Positions 5,658 to 12,656 of a stretch of 59,581 bases of DNA are shown here, piece after piece. The translations under genes and the position numbers were made by a program. A model generated the notes under the pieces. That model was not told the origin of the DNA, did not search any database, and was given only the letters and a program-made list of their open reading frames with translations. The DNA is taken from positions 1 to 59,581 of the forward strand of contig JAIEMS010000012.1 of NCBI GenBank assembly GCA_019751915.1. Reading direction: 5' to 3'. This DNA is from Burkholderiaceae bacterium. Its GTDB lineage: Bacteria > Pseudomonadota > Gammaproteobacteria > Burkholderiales > Burkholderiaceae_C. Numbering within the stretch: position 1 is the first letter of the stretch; each line of letters opens with the position of its first letter.

Positions 5658-8600
5658 ATGAAAAGTATAAAAACGGTTGGGGCGAGGTTGCGCCAAGGGC
5701 TGTTGGTCGCAGCACTGGTGCTGTCGGGCAACATGGCCGCCGCAACCGAACGGGTGGTGTTGGGGGATGCCAACTTGCGCACCGCGCTACAAGAGCTGCG
5801 TACAGCAGCGGCCAAGACGGGCGAAGTACGGGTCATTGTCGGGGTTCGTACCCCCTTTGCCCCGGAAGGCAAACTGGCCGCTGAAGCCGTCGGCCAACAG
5901 CGCCGGGAAATCGCCAGCGCCCAAGCTGCGGTGTTGGCCCAATTACCGCAGGTAGCACAAAAGAAAAACGCTTTGCGCCGCTTCGAGACCATTCCTTTTA
6001 TGGCGATGGTGGTCAACAGCGCCGACTTGGCAGCACTGGAGCAAATGCCCGAGGTAGCCTCCGTCCAGCGCGACAAGCCCAACCGGCCTACGCTGTCATC
6101 GAGCGTGCCCCAGATTGGCGGCAGTACGGCGTGGAGCAGCGGCTACACCGGCACAGGGCAAACGGTGGCTGTGCTCGACACGGGGGTCGATAAGACCCAC
6201 CCTTTTCTCACCGGCAAGGTGGTCTCTGAGGCCTGCTACTCCACCACCTTGGTGAGCGACAAATCGTACTCGGTGTGCCCCGGCGGAGTGGCGCAGTCCA
6301 CTGCGGCGGGTTCGGGCATGCCTTGCGCTGTAGATTGTGACCACGGCACCCACGTCGCAGGCATTGTGGCGGGCAACAACGGCCCACAGGGAGCGCTGGC
6401 AGGCGTTGCCAAATCGGCATCGTTGATTGCTATTCAGGTGTTTTCTGAGATCCGCGACCCCAACTACTGCCAAAGCAGCACAAGCTGCCCAACGGCCTAC
6501 GATGCCGACATCGTCAGTGGGTTGGAGCGCGTTTTGGCCCTGAGCAGCAGTTACAGCATTGCTGCGGCCAACATGAGCTTGGGCGGGAGCCGCTACTACA
6601 GTCAATCGACCTGCGATGCCGAGAATCTATCGACCAAAGCCGCCATTGACAACCTGCGCGCTGCGGGCATTGCCACGGTGATTTCTTCAGGCAACGATGG
6701 CTATACCAACTCGATGGGTTCACCGGGCTGCATCTCATCGGCCATCAGTGTGGGTTCTACCTATGCCAGATCGGGCTTTTCCAACAACTGCGATGGTAAT
6801 AATTTGGGCACATCGTCGGTCGATTCGATCTCTTGTTACTCCAACTCGGCATCGTTTTTGAATTTGTTAGCCCCCGGTTCTGCCATCAACTCCTCGATTC
6901 CTGGCAATGCTTACGATGAGTATTGGGGCACCTCGATGGCCGCACCCCATGTGGCTGGCGCTTGGGCGTTGCTCAAGCAAAAGCAGCCATCGGCCAGTGT
7001 CACCGAGGTGTTAAATGCTTTCGTCTCGACCGGCCAAGCCATCACCGACCCCCGCAATAGCCTGACCAAACCGCGCATCAACGTCGCACAGGCGCTCAAC
7101 GCTTTGGGCGGCAGCAGTAGTTTTCTTTTGGCGGTGAGCAAGGCCGGTACCGGCGCTGGCAGCATCACCAGCAGTCCTAGCGGTATCGACTGCGGTAGCG
7201 ATTGCAGCGAGAGCTACGCCAATGGCACCAGCGTCACCTTAACGGCCACGCCTGCCAGCACCAGTACGTTTACCGGCTGGAGTGGTGCATGCACCGGCAC
7301 CGCCAGCACCTGCACCGTCACCATGAGCGCGGCGCGCAGCGTCACGGCCAGTTTTACCAACGCCATTGTCAGCACCCGTTTGGTCGCGCTGACCAAGTCA
7401 GGCACCGGCACTGGCACGGTTAGCAGCAGCCCCAGTGGTATTAATTGTGCTGCCAGTTGCAGCAGTGCTTTGGTCAGTTTTTCAAGCACCGCCAGCGTGG
7501 TGTTGACAGCCACACCTAGCAGCGGCAGCAGCTTTGCTGGTTGGAGTGGCGCTTGCACGGGCACGGGCACTTGCACGGTGGCGGCTGGCACCAGCTCGGC
7601 CAGCGTTGGTGCGGCCTTTAACACCAGCAGCACCGGAGGTGGCAGCACCGTCACGTTGCTAGACCGCACCGGCTTGTCGGGTGCAGCAGGCAGCGCACAA
7701 CGGTTTTCAGTGCAGGTGCCCTCGGGCGCGACCAACTTGGTCATCAGCACCTCGGGAGGGACGGGCGATGTCGATTTGTACGTCAAGGCAGGCACTGCAC
7801 CCACCACCACCAGCTTTGATTGCGAGTCTTACCAAGATGGCAATACCGAAAACTGCAGCTTTGCCACTCCCACGCCGGGCACTTACCACATCCTGCTCGA
7901 TGGCTATACCGCCTACAGCGGTGTCGCGCTCAAGGCCACGTACACCGGTACAAGCGCTGCCAAAGTCACTTTGACGGTGCAAAAAACAGGTTCTGGTCAG
8001 GGTACCGTGGTTTCCACCTCGGCCACGCCGGGTTTGGCACAAAACCTGTCCGCACCGCAGATTGTCGGCGGTCAGTTGGCGGCTGCCGGAGCATGGCCGT
8101 GGCAAGTGCGCTTGCGTATCACCACCGCCAGCGGCACTTTTTTGTGCGGCGGCTCTTTGCTGTCAGACCGTTGGGTACTGACCGCTGCCCACTGCGTTGT
8201 GGGCGACGATGAAATCACGACACTGGCCCCTAGCGCCATCACGGTGCGTGCCGGTTCGCTGCAAAAAGACAGCGGTGGACAAGTGGTGAACGTCACTCGC
8301 ATCGTTCGACACGCCTCTTATTCGCCAGTCACCACCGACAACGATATGGCTTTGCTGGAGTTGTTCAGCCCTGTCACTTTGTCCTCGACCGCTAATGTGG
8401 TGCCACCCCTGCTCGCCTCCCAAGAAGCGACGCTGGCGGCTACCAACACGCTGGCTACGGTCACCGGTTGGGGGACTACCAGCTCTGGCGGCTCCACCAG
8501 TTCAGCGTTGATGCAGGTGCAAGTGCCTTTGCTGACTTCCAGTGCCTGTGCCAGCCAATCGGCTTACGGCAGCGCCAAAATCACCAACAACATGATTTGT

Positions 8601-9689
8601 GCTGGCTACCCTGCCGGTGGCAAAGACTCGTGCCAAGGCGACAGCGGTGGCCCGCTGGTGGTGCCCGATGGTCGGGGCGGTTATGTGTTGGCCGGTATCG
8701 TCAGTTGGGGCCAAGGTTGCGCTTTGCCTAATTACCCCGGTGTCTACACCCGCGTGGCCAATTACCAAGCATGGCTTGAAGCCAACACCGGCCTGACTTT
8801 TGGCACCACCCCGACCACTCCTACTTTGATTGATTGCGGTAGCACCTGCTCGGCCACAGTCGATCTCCAAACCACGATCACCCTCAAGGCCACGGCGACC
8901 AGCGGCTCCACTTTTGTCGGTTGGGGCGGTGCCTGTACCGGTACGGCAAGCACCTGCACCGTCACGATGGGGGCGAGCAAGTCGGTCACGGCCAGTTTTA
9001 ATGCTGGCAGCACCAGCGGGCCTCTGCCGAATGCTACTGATTTTGTAGCGCAGCAGTACCGCGATTTTCTGGGCCGAGAGGCCGATGCTGCAGGTCTTAA
9101 CAGCTGGGTGAGCCAACTCAATGCGGGCACCGTCAGTCGGGCGCAAATGGTGCAAAGCCTGATGGGTTCCAGCGAATCAAAAAATCGTTACGGCCCCTTG
9201 GTGCGCCTCTATACCGCTTACTTTTTGCGCCAACCCGACTACGCTGGTCTGATGTATTGGCTCGGTCAGATGTTTCCATCCAGTGGCGCTACTGGCACCA
9301 GCTTGGCACAGGTGTCTGGGGCGTTTGCCCAGTCGGCAGAATTTGTCAATCGCTATGGCAGTCTGAGCAACGATGGCTTTGTCAATTTGGTTTACCAAAA
9401 CGTACTCGGTCGTCAGCCAGATGCAGCAGGCAAAGCCTATTGGTTAGGGCAACTGAACGGGGGCTTGTCGCGCGGTAGTTTGATGATTGGTTTTTCAGAA
9501 TCGACCGAGAATCAAGGGCTAACCACCAATGCCGTACAGATTACAACCGGTTATGTAGGCATGTTGCGCCGCGCTCCTAGCACTACCGACCATGCGTACT
9601 GGCTGGCCGAAATTGCTGCGGGCCGCAGCACGGTATTGGTTTTTATTGATTGGATTTTGAAATCTACCGAATATGCACAGAGATTTTAA
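5658..9689 (+). CDS. Secreted dual protease: S8 subtilisin plus S1 trypsin-like domain, with PPC and DUF4214
   Basis: The 1343-residue protein starts with a signal peptide (about 1-28) and a propeptide to about 150. The subtilisin domain follows (about 155-485) with the triad D174 (VLDTGVD), H229 (DHGTHVAG) and S426 (GTSMAAPH). Two InlB-like repeats with paired cysteines (about 490-655) and a PPC domain (about 660-765) come next. A third repeat starts at about 770 and is interrupted by a complete trypsin-like domain: IVGG at 802, H845, D896, S996 and D990 in the specificity pocket. The repeat resumes at LIDCGSTC (about 1057). DUF4214 fills 1125-1343. The start has GAAGGG upstream. Both catalytic sets look complete, and IVGG implies activation cleavage before residue 802. 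It is probably an extracellular degradative enzyme. Confidence 0.93.
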   Translation: MKSIKTVGARLRQGLLVAALVLSGNMAAATERVVLGDANLRTALQELRTAAAKTGEVRVIVGVRTPFAPEGKLAAEAVGQQRREIASAQAAVLAQLPQVAQKKNALRRFETIPFMAMVVNSADLAALEQMPEVASVQRDKPNRPTLSSSVPQIGGSTAWSSGYTGTGQTVAVLDTGVDKTHPFLTGKVVSEACYSTTLVSDKSYSVCPGGVAQSTAAGSGMPCAVDCDHGTHVAGIVAGNNGPQGALAGVAKSASLIAIQVFSEIRDPNYCQSSTSCPTAYDADIVSGLERVLALSSSYSIAAANMSLGGSRYYSQSTCDAENLSTKAAIDNLRAAGIATVISSGNDGYTNSMGSPGCISSAISVGSTYARSGFSNNCDGNNLGTSSVDSISCYSNSASFLNLLAPGSAINSSIPGNAYDEYWGTSMAAPHVAGAWALLKQKQPSASVTEVLNAFVSTGQAITDPRNSLTKPRINVAQALNALGGSSSFLLAVSKAGTGAGSITSSPSGIDCGSDCSESYANGTSVTLTATPASTSTFTGWSGACTGTASTCTVTMSAARSVTASFTNAIVSTRLVALTKSGTGTGTVSSSPSGINCAASCSSALVSFSSTASVVLTATPSSGSSFAGWSGACTGTGTCTVAAGTSSASVGAAFNTSSTGGGSTVTLLDRTGLSGAAGSAQRFSVQVPSGATNLVISTSGGTGDVDLYVKAGTAPTTTSFDCESYQDGNTENCSFATPTPGTYHILLDGYTAYSGVALKATYTGTSAAKVTLTVQKTGSGQGTVVSTSATPGLAQNLSAPQIVGGQLAAAGAWPWQVRLRITTASGTFLCGGSLLSDRWVLTAAHCVVGDDEITTLAPSAITVRAGSLQKDSGGQVVNVTRIVRHASYSPVTTDNDMALLELFSPVTLSSTANVVPPLLASQEATLAATNTLATVTGWGTTSSGGSTSSALMQVQVPLLTSSACASQSAYGSAKITNNMICAGYPAGGKDSCQGDSGGPLVVPDGRGGYVLAGIVSWGQGCALPNYPGVYTRVANYQAWLEANTGLTFGTTPTTPTLIDCGSTCSATVDLQTTITLKATATSGSTFVGWGGACTGTASTCTVTMGASKSVTASFNAGSTSGPLPNATDFVAQQYRDFLGREADAAGLNSWVSQLNAGTVSRAQMVQSLMGSSESKNRYGPLVRLYTAYFLRQPDYAGLMYWLGQMFPSSGATGTSLAQVSGAFAQSAEFVNRYGSLSNDGFVNLVYQNVLGRQPDAAGKAYWLGQLNGGLSRGSLMIGFSESTENQGLTTNAVQITTGYVGMLRRAPSTTDHAYWLAEIAAGRSTVLVFIDWILKSTEYAQRF

Positions 9690-9731: not shown

Positions 9732-12656
9732 ATGTTAAAAATAAACTATTATTTAAAATATTTTTTACTTGGGTTTCTGGTGTTTTTTCAGCATTTTGCT
9801 CAGGCGCAGATGCTGATACAAATGACATCGGGCAAAGCGCCTACCACCACGGAGATGCAAAAAGCCCTTGCTGTTCCGGCGGGTGCTTCAATGCGGATTG
9901 AAAATTTTAAAATCAATGATGACCAGCCATCATTGGTTCACTTAGATGTTCATCGCATCGAAATCACCAATGAGCAAACAGAATTGGTGGTTCATTCTGC
10001 CAAAGGTCGCCGCGTAGAAAAATTAGCGAACCGCGCCCACTTTGCAGGAAAAATAGAGGGCGATAAAGACAGTTTTGTTTTTCTGGCAGTGGATGACCAA
10101 GGTGAAATGCGAAGCATCATCCACCGAGGTGATCGGGTCATTGTCAATGAATTGCGCGCTGCCACAGACAAACGCTCAGATAGCAACGTATCGCGCAAGG
10201 TCGATCAGCAGCTTGATTTTATGAATCGCGATTTCTCGTGTGACGTAAATGGCGAATTTATCAACCAAAACAAAACGCCTTCTACCGATCTTTTCCGAAA
10301 GATGGTAAACAATGCCATCGAGAAAAAAGCAGCTGCGGCTGTTGCGCCACAGGCAACGCAGCGGCGTGCTGATATTATTGTTGAGACCGATTATGAATAC
10401 TACCAAAAGTTCAACAACACCACAGCAGCATCCAATTACGTAACCGATGTTTTTGCCTACGTTAGTACAAAATACCAACAAGAGATAAATGCACGCTTTT
10501 TGCTGAAGCAAATTAATATTTACAGCACCTCTGCCGATCCGTGGGCACAAACCACCAGCAGCGGCTTGTTGAATGAGTTGCGGGCTTATTGGAACGATGC
10601 TTCCAGATCCGCAACATCGCGCCACCATGTCCATTTATTCAGTGGTAAAGATACGCGTGGCGGCATTGCTTACACCAACACTTTGGGCATGCCCTCTTAT
10701 GGTTATGGTGTCAGTGGCAGTATTGAAGCCGACTTCAGTGCCAGCAACCCCCAAATTGTCTGGGATTCGGTGGTCGTGGCCCATGAGATTGGCCATGCCT
10801 TTGGCAGTGACCATACCCATAACTACGATGCACCCGATATCGGCTCCAATGCCGGTGGAGCCATTGATTGCTGCTACGCGGACACCAGCGGTAGCCAGTG
10901 CGGTGTGCAATTGGGCGGCGCTGGTAAAAATGGATTTTTACCGGGACTGGGTTCTATCACCGGGGGCACTGCCGGACGCGGTAATGGCACCATCATGAGT
11001 TATTGCCACTTGCTCACGCCCTACATGAGCAATTTGACTTTTACTTTTGGCGAAAATCATCCCTACGGTGTCAATCCTGGGCGGGTGGCAACGGTGATGA
11101 AATCGTCAGCAGAGCAATTCTTGCCCACCGATACGGTCAGCACCTATACCTTGACGGTGGCTAAGAGCGGTACCGGATCCGGTAGCGTGACCAGCTCGCC
11201 CGCTGGCATTACTTGCGGCAGTGATTGCAGCGAAAGCTACGCCAGCGGCACCAGCGTCACCCTGACGGCTACCGCATCCAGCGGCAGCAGCTTTACCGGC
11301 TGGACAGGTGATTGCACTGGCACAGCCAGCACTTGCACAGTCAGCATGAGCGCAGCGCGCAGTACTACGGCCAGCTTTACCACGACGACGGCCAGCACGC
11401 GCCTGATTTCCCTGACCAAATCGGGCACCGGCACTGGCACCGTCAGCAGCAGCCCCAGCGGTATTAGCTGCACAACCGGTTGTGGCAGCGCATCGGCCAG
11501 CTTCGCGACCACCGCCAGCGTCACACTGACCGCCACGCCTGCCAGTGGCAGCACTTTTGCTGGATGGAGTGGCGCTTGTACGGGCACCGGTAGTTGCACC
11601 ATTGCCGCTGGCAGCAGTGCCGCCAGTGTGGGGGCCACCTTTAATACCAGCAGCTCGGGTGGCACAACGGTCACGCTGTTGAACAAAACAGGTCTGTCGG
11701 GTGCTACCGGTAGTTCGCAAAGCTTTGCGGTGCAAGTGCCGTCGGGGGCAACCAACTTGGTCATTAGCATTTCTGGCGGCACGGGTGATGTCGATTTGTA
11801 CGTCAAGTTTGGCGCGGCCCCAACACTACAAATCTTTGATTGCGCACCTTACAGCAATACCAACGATGAAACTTGTCCATTCTCTGCCCCCAAGGCAGGA
11901 ACCTACTATATTTTGCTGGACGGTGCCATTGTTTACAGCGGCGTGTCACTCAATGTGACCTACACCGGTAGCAGCAGCGGCGGTTCTGGGCCATTGCCCA
12001 ACGCAATCGACTTTGTAGCCCAACAGTACCGCGATCTTTTGGGCCGCGAGGCCGATGTAGGAGGCCTCAGCTGGGTGAACCAACTCAATGCAGGCACCGT
12101 CAGTCGGGCGCAAATAGTGCAAAGCCTGATGGGTTCTAGCGAATCAAAAAACCGTTATGGCCCATTGGTGCGCCTCTATACCGCTTACTTTCTGCGCCAA
12201 CCCGACTACGCTGGCTTGGCGTATTGGCTTGGTCAGATGTTTCCATCCAGTGGCGCTACCGGTACCAGCTTGGCACAGGTGTCTGGGTTGTTCGCCCAAT
12301 CGGCAGAATTTGTCAATCGCTATGGCAGTCTGAGCAACGATGGTTTTGTCAATTTGGTTTACCAAAACGTGCTTGGTCGCCAACCAGATGCCGCCGGCAA
12401 AGCCTATTGGTTGAGTCAACTGAACGGGGGCTTGTCGCGTGGTAGCTTGATGATCGGTTTTTCAGACTCGCCAGAAAACCAAAGCAAGACAGCCAATGCT
12501 GTGCAGATTACCATGGGGTACGTTGGCTTGCTGCGCCGCTCTCCCAGCGCCTCTGACCATGCCTACTGGTTGGCCGAGATTGCTGCGGGTCGCAACACCT
12601 TGTTAGGTTTTATTGACGGCATTTTGAAATCTACCGAGTACGCCCAGCGCTTCTGA
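9732..12656 (+). CDS. Secreted zinc metalloprotease (reprolysin-like zincin) with PPC and DUF4214
   Basis: The 974-residue protein has a signal peptide (about 1-25), a propeptide and a metzincin domain. The zinc motif is HEIGHAFGSDH (H351, E352, H355, H361), with a Met-turn at M422 (TIMSY). Two InlB-like Cys-paired repeats (about 470-630), a PPC domain (about 635-750) and DUF4214 (about 755-974) follow, closely matching those of the upstream protease. AAGGTGA precedes the ATG. The gap to the upstream gene is 42 bases, so the two are probably co-transcribed, ending at the terminator at 12671. The first 1.3 kb is visibly richer in A/T than the tail, suggesting domain shuffling. Confidence 0.92.
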   Translation: MLKINYYLKYFLLGFLVFFQHFAQAQMLIQMTSGKAPTTTEMQKALAVPAGASMRIENFKINDDQPSLVHLDVHRIEITNEQTELVVHSAKGRRVEKLANRAHFAGKIEGDKDSFVFLAVDDQGEMRSIIHRGDRVIVNELRAATDKRSDSNVSRKVDQQLDFMNRDFSCDVNGEFINQNKTPSTDLFRKMVNNAIEKKAAAAVAPQATQRRADIIVETDYEYYQKFNNTTAASNYVTDVFAYVSTKYQQEINARFLLKQINIYSTSADPWAQTTSSGLLNELRAYWNDASRSATSRHHVHLFSGKDTRGGIAYTNTLGMPSYGYGVSGSIEADFSASNPQIVWDSVVVAHEIGHAFGSDHTHNYDAPDIGSNAGGAIDCCYADTSGSQCGVQLGGAGKNGFLPGLGSITGGTAGRGNGTIMSYCHLLTPYMSNLTFTFGENHPYGVNPGRVATVMKSSAEQFLPTDTVSTYTLTVAKSGTGSGSVTSSPAGITCGSDCSESYASGTSVTLTATASSGSSFTGWTGDCTGTASTCTVSMSAARSTTASFTTTTASTRLISLTKSGTGTGTVSSSPSGISCTTGCGSASASFATTASVTLTATPASGSTFAGWSGACTGTGSCTIAAGSSAASVGATFNTSSSGGTTVTLLNKTGLSGATGSSQSFAVQVPSGATNLVISISGGTGDVDLYVKFGAAPTLQIFDCAPYSNTNDETCPFSAPKAGTYYILLDGAIVYSGVSLNVTYTGSSSGGSGPLPNAIDFVAQQYRDLLGREADVGGLSWVNQLNAGTVSRAQIVQSLMGSSESKNRYGPLVRLYTAYFLRQPDYAGLAYWLGQMFPSSGATGTSLAQVSGLFAQSAEFVNRYGSLSNDGFVNLVYQNVLGRQPDAAGKAYWLSQLNGGLSRGSLMIGFSDSPENQSKTANAVQITMGYVGLLRRSPSASDHAYWLAEIAAGRNTLLGFIDGILKSTEYAQRF

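Follow-up and report, generated by a model that had tools for sequence, protein, structure and literature searches.

The window, the whole 59,581-nucleotide stretch of contig JAIEMS010000012.1 of a Burkholderiaceae bacterium that was analyzed here, carries on its forward strand an open reading frame (ORF) of 1343 amino acids (5658..9689) without an internal stop in the reading-frame check. The encoded chain is composed, in order, of an S8 subtilisin domain, two InlB-type repeats, a PPC domain, a third InlB-type repeat in two halves with an S1 trypsin domain between them, and three DUF4214 domains. A putative Sec-type signal peptide at approximately residues 1-28 (5658..5741, forward strand) was read by eye from a basic start, a hydrophobic run, and an AxA-like end. 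Repeat 1 (Flg_new_2, residues 488-568, 7119..7361) was located by Pfam and by our repeat model, repeat 2 (residues 575-655, 7380..7622) by the repeat model, and the PPC domain (residues 682-748, 7701..7901) and the three DUF4214 domains (9015..9686) by Pfam, all on the forward strand. The neighboring gene on the same strand (9732..12656) encodes, according to Pfam, an M12B reprolysin-like metalloprotease followed by two InlB-type repeats, a PPC domain, and DUF4214, without a trypsin domain; the protease it encodes is a candidate for activating S1. At the DNA level, the two genes share 85.3% identity in their DUF4214 tails vs 69-76% in their repeats and PPC domains, which suggests recent gene conversion.

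The Peptidase_S8 domain (residues 165-459, 6150..7034, forward strand; Pfam and alignment) scored 118.9 bits against a cut-off of 21.8 (E 3.5e-34). Its triad, D174, H229, and S426, is found in DTG, HGTHVAG, and GTSMAAPH motifs, and together with the oxyanion asparagine (N346) and the Pfam match is common to this domain and the subtilisins of MEROPS family S8. The top PDB sequence match is the S8 family peptidase 8jmw, followed by subtilisin BPN', but unlike plain subtilisins the chain adds repeats, a PPC domain, a nested trypsin, and DUF4214 domains. It is the sole S8 match in its own genome (G000). An I9-type propeptide is common, though not universal, among subtilases; residues 29-145 (5742..6092, forward strand) are a putative N-terminal prodomain by position only, a stretch of suitable length in which Pfam gave no Inhibitor_I9 match at E<=0.1.

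The S1A trypsin domain occupies residues 802-1040 (8061..8777, forward strand; Pfam and alignment) and matches the Pfam Trypsin model over its whole length (positions 1-220 of 220, 225 bits, E 1.3e-66, above cut-off). The S1A hallmarks are present: H845, D896, and S996 correspond to His57, Asp102, and Ser195, D990 in the pocket to Asp189, D995 to Asp194, and the domain starts with I802-VGG. There are six cysteines, which presumably occupy the places of three trypsin disulfides. When the structure model was searched with Foldseek, kallikrein and trypsin chains ranked first. The S1A crayfish trypsin 2f91, the top PDB sequence match and 43% identical in the fold search, shares with the nested domain the triad, the pocket Asp, and the IVGG start. 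Unlike ordinary trypsins, the S1 domain is embedded in a repeat of a bigger protease and has a non-basic P1 residue. Of the five trypsin-family matches in G000, just one besides the nested domain is strong, a lone 497-aa ORF on a separate contig. The first-pass annotation had described a secreted chain with two proteases of different clans, and this is borne out by the Pfam matches, both triads, and the signal-peptide-like N terminus; the position of the ORF and the catalytic residues agree with it in the ORF check, Pfam, and the alignments. The nesting of the trypsin, the exchange of the N-terminal protease, and the pattern of P1 residues presented below are additions to that first reading.

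According to the repeat model, the trypsin sits inside the third repeat, directly after its first β hairpin, and splits it. A complete Flg_new_2/InlB B-repeat was recovered as two parts flanking the S1 domain: residues 769-789 (model positions 2-22; 7962..8024), which form a β hairpin in the structure model, and residues 1058-1115 (model positions 24-81; 8829..9002), both on the forward strand. The repeat model was trained on 512 matches, from genome_contigs loci only, and then run on proteins of the genus, where all five nested chains (from G000 and the genomes designated G004, G005, G014, and G017) are split at the same point, with a first part from position 2 or 3 to 19-23 and a second from 24 to 81; the G000 second-part match nominally starts at 11, where it overlaps the C-terminal tail of the trypsin. 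Within the full proteins the first parts score just 8-11 bits, and residues 765-801 of the G000 chain, to which the shuffling control was confined, score 19.0 bits on their own vs a maximum of 9.7 over 5000 shuffles. The structure model (mean pLDDT 78.5, pTM 0.71) places the trypsin fold between two β regions: strands at 769-777 and 782-789 precede it, and further strands follow from residue 1064. Its input alignment had 25 rows, none of which supported the first repeat part, and the pLDDT of that block is 62-67, dropping to 44. Alignments made with MAFFT in which the nested segment was combined with whole or split repeats misplaced the first part and were set aside. All four cysteines of repeat 3 are in the second part, so the first part would be held by strand pairing only. 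A whole enzyme is thus accommodated within a small repeat domain.

Of the 25 genomes searched besides G000 in a genus sample of 26, two have near full-length homologs, G004 (63% identity, residues 20-1343) and G005 (60%, residues 34-1343). The first-pass annotation had named a frameshift in the genome as an observation that would separate the two domains; conservation of the entire architecture in two other genomes at 60-63% identity rules out a frameshift or an assembly artifact, and the fusion is real. In G014 the S8 part extends to the end of one contig and the S1 part starts at a different contig end, and we infer an S8-S1 fusion there too. The nested type of trypsin is therefore found in 5 of the 26 genomes, with catalytic and pocket residues conserved in all five domains and mutual identities of 68-85%. 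The fifth chain, from G017, has the Pfam domain order M12B, InlB, InlB, PPC, and nested S1, with one weaker DUF4214 match. The N-terminal protease is thus exchangeable, being S8 in most of the nested chains and M12B in G017. The sole S8 match of G017 is in a 900-aa ORF unlike the S8-S1 chain, and the S8 homolog of another genome (G018) is in a 691-aa ORF without S1.

The assumption of the earlier annotation that a bacterial protein normally carries one or the other protease holds within the genus, family, and class samples searched, among the matches listed. With up to six candidates scored per genome, the segment comprising residues 766-1120 (from residue 770) was matched at E<=1e-25 in four of the 299 genomes of the family, and the other three matches are in ORFs of 291-466 aa, which leave no room for S8 as well. 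A trypsin-family match was found in 348 of 369 genomes of the class and an S8 match in 208 (E<=1e-15), and among the matches listed an S8-S1 fusion was found in the own genome only. Pfam scans of ten long trypsin ORFs from the class genomes (in G376, G512, G613, G447, G431, G672, G332, and G380, and in G562 on contigs C133, where the ORF is cut by the contig end, and C220) gave no S8 match at E<=0.001. A tblastn search of plasmids with the whole protein returned 558 records, none with a single place covering 80% of it. We found no described bacterial S8-S1 protein in a literature search from which subscription journals were mostly absent, nor is such a chain present in the accessible part of a survey of prokaryotic serine proteases in 91 genomes (PMC2605481). 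That part of the survey does describe a thermopsin-subtilisin chain, NP_394205.1 of Thermoplasma acidophilum, which likewise unites proteases from two families in a single polypeptide, although it is archaeal, pairs thermopsin with subtilisin, and is described there without nesting. The architecture is thus real, conserved, and rare in the sampled sets.

A possible pre-insertion state is suggested by the sequences of Thiocapsa sp. KS1 (L007) and Thiocapsa UBA6158 (L011), which have the order S8, InlB, PPC, InlB, with the final repeat unbroken and S1 absent (Pfam was run on L007 only). This order is common to the chain described here, but the Thiocapsa proteins have a single repeat before PPC rather than two, no trypsin, and an F5/8 type C tail (Pfam, L007), and their S8 domains are just 32-35% identical to that of ORF 5658-9689. 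In a tree of S1 domains, the lone G000 trypsin groups with the nested ones (support 98/95), and the five nested domains form an inner group (98/84; the bootstrap had not settled). The lone trypsin also resembles the nested G000 domain outside the domain itself, with PQ|IVGG before it and NTGL-FG after it. This likeness suggests that trypsin and propeptide were inserted as one unit, and insertion of an entire trypsin with a short propeptide is the most likely origin of the nested domain. For G017, the M12B part and repeat 1 score best with the M12B chains, the S1 domain and both parts of repeat 3 score best with the S8-S1 chains, and repeat 2 (best with M12B) and PPC (best with S8-S1) are near ties. 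The S8-S1 and M12B genes are in tandem in G000 and G004, an arrangement in which a deletion between neighbors could yield a G017-like chimera.

Activity of S1A proteases requires a free N terminus of the Ile16 type, and from alignment and comparison with the class the expected activation junction is Gln801|Ile802 (8058..8063, forward strand). A basic P1 residue is usual in cellular trypsins, though not defining. The residue preceding the mature S1 domain is Gln in G000, Thr in G004, Thr in G005, Ser in G014, and Arg in G017, so that the basic P1 allowing tryptic self-activation is absent from all four S8-linked chains and present in the M12B-linked one. In the S1 tree the G017 domain falls within the S8-linked group, and its Arg is most simply a later gain. 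The P1 of the lone G000 trypsin, which has no S8 linkage, is Gln. We also compared 36 stretches from the class, hand-picked from the stronger trypsin matches, which contained 39 S1 matches; 31 were countable (27 basic), and eight were left uncounted, seven with the N terminus outside the alignment and one without an IVGG-like start. After omission of a piece of a broken gene with Arg (L209), Arg or Lys is at P1 in 26 of 30 trypsins, two of which (L178 and L179) are near-identical, and 20 of the source genomes also contain an S8 match. At P1', Ile, Val, or Leu is the rule in these trypsins. The omitted L209 (G493, contig C383) is a trypsin gene carrying an internal TAG stop.

The only junction residue common to the four S8-linked chains is a Pro at P2. 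It was considered as a mark of S8 cleavage and rejected, since many of the sampled trypsins carry Pro there too. The SVPQ-IGG motif at the start of the S8 domain was likewise considered, as a maturation site that SAPQ|IVGG at the trypsin junction would imitate; by comparison with subtilisin BPN' we take this motif to lie several residues inside the mature enzyme, and the likeness is therefore probably due to chance.

Trypsin relatives were also found at 57 loci on viral contigs (L217-L273) by using a broad trypsin alignment, after scans with single proteins or narrow alignments were unsuccessful, and many of them seem to lack the tryptic switch. The count covers 43 of these loci, many of them closely related, at which the start could be read and both motifs of the active site are present; the other 14 were left out. 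P1 is Arg or Lys in 12 of the 43 and non-basic in 31, of which 28 have Met or Phe, placed directly before IVGG within a longer leader, e.g., GELPQPM or GELPEPF. By these counts, S8 fusions are not alone in having lost the basic P1.

Judging by the junctions, activation of the S8-linked trypsins probably requires a second protease. The accessible part of PMC3779199 provides a parallel in the dust-mite trypsin zymogen pro-Der p 3, which carries Thr at P1, fails to activate itself, and relies on another protease, Der p 1; that activator is a separate molecule and a cysteine protease, whereas here the S8 domain is in the same chain. The attached S8 domain is the best candidate activator, and the neighboring M12B protease is a rival.

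Our preferred explanation, which we advance tentatively and hold to be possible rather than probable, is a secreted two-protease chain for extracellular digestion in which S8 activates the nested trypsin and the split repeat holds the pieces together. The chain would be exported by Sec and then probably by type II secretion, which is available given two GspD matches above cut-off. S8 would mature first and then cut Gln801|Ile802 in cis or on a neighboring molecule, whereupon the freed Ile N terminus would switch the trypsin on. Through strand pairing, the split repeat would keep the cut chain, both proteases, and the DUF4214 tail in one complex, and the likely role would be extracellular protein digestion with complementary specificities. 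Built-in activation is indirectly favored because the S8-linked trypsins do not have the basic P1 after which trypsin cuts. The clue is weak, because the four chains are related and a non-basic P1 is commoner on viral contigs; this kinship, along with the inferred linkage in G014, counts against the explanation, and the Gln of the lone G000 trypsin suggests that a non-basic P1 could predate the fusion as an old lineage trait instead of having resulted from it. A more elaborate version, a protease relay in which the switch residue was ceded to the same-chain subtilisin, the repeat serves as a clamp, and the swap to a metalloprotease was accompanied by regain of the Arg switch, appears fairly unlikely. 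The proposed mechanism as a whole is plausible.

Unspecific activation, in which any extracellular protease cuts an exposed linker and the fusion serves for bifunctional digestion with no dedicated cascade, is somewhat unlikely by our estimate. The junction residues differ among the S8-linked chains (Q, T, T, S), with the P2 Pro alone constant, the low model confidence of the linker would be consistent with a flexible loop, and many trypsin relatives on viral contigs are also without a basic P1; retention of a basic P1 by 26 of the 30 class-sample trypsins argues against it. A separate activator is specified if the neighboring M12B metalloprotease (9732-12656) acts in trans by cutting before hydrophobic residues, with S8 uninvolved. 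M12B enzymes commonly favor a hydrophobic P1' such as Ile, which the junction offers, the two genes adjoin in G000 and G004, and G017 carries M12B in the same chain as the nested trypsin. That the junction would also suit this neighbor counts against S8 as the activator. However, Ile, Val, or Leu at P1' is general in trypsins and makes the fit unspecific, and the G017 chain, with M12B in cis, has Arg at P1 and so looks self-activatable; on balance we regard activation by M12B as unlikely. The S1 domain might instead be a by-product of shuffling among similar tandem protease genes, with little selected function in the fusion. The divided affinities of the chimera-like G017 chain (M12B head and repeat 1 vs S1 and repeat 3) and the higher identity of the DUF4214 tails relative to the repeats and PPC of the two window genes are in line with this, but the intact catalytic and pocket residues of the five nested domains and their mutual identity make it improbable.

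Protease cascades are usually distributed across several genes; here, activator and zymogen may share one chain. The natural variants, S8-linked chains with a non-basic P1, an M12B-linked chain with Arg, and a repeat without an insert, make the idea directly testable. A different association of a trypsin relative was observed on plasmid pRL11 of Rhizobium johnstonii (L275, 1-6774), where an annotated trypsin-like serine protease gene is located between genes for a caspase-family protein and a serpin, and genes for a DUF4384 protein and a kinase lie outside this pair; the set may be a protease-inhibitor module.
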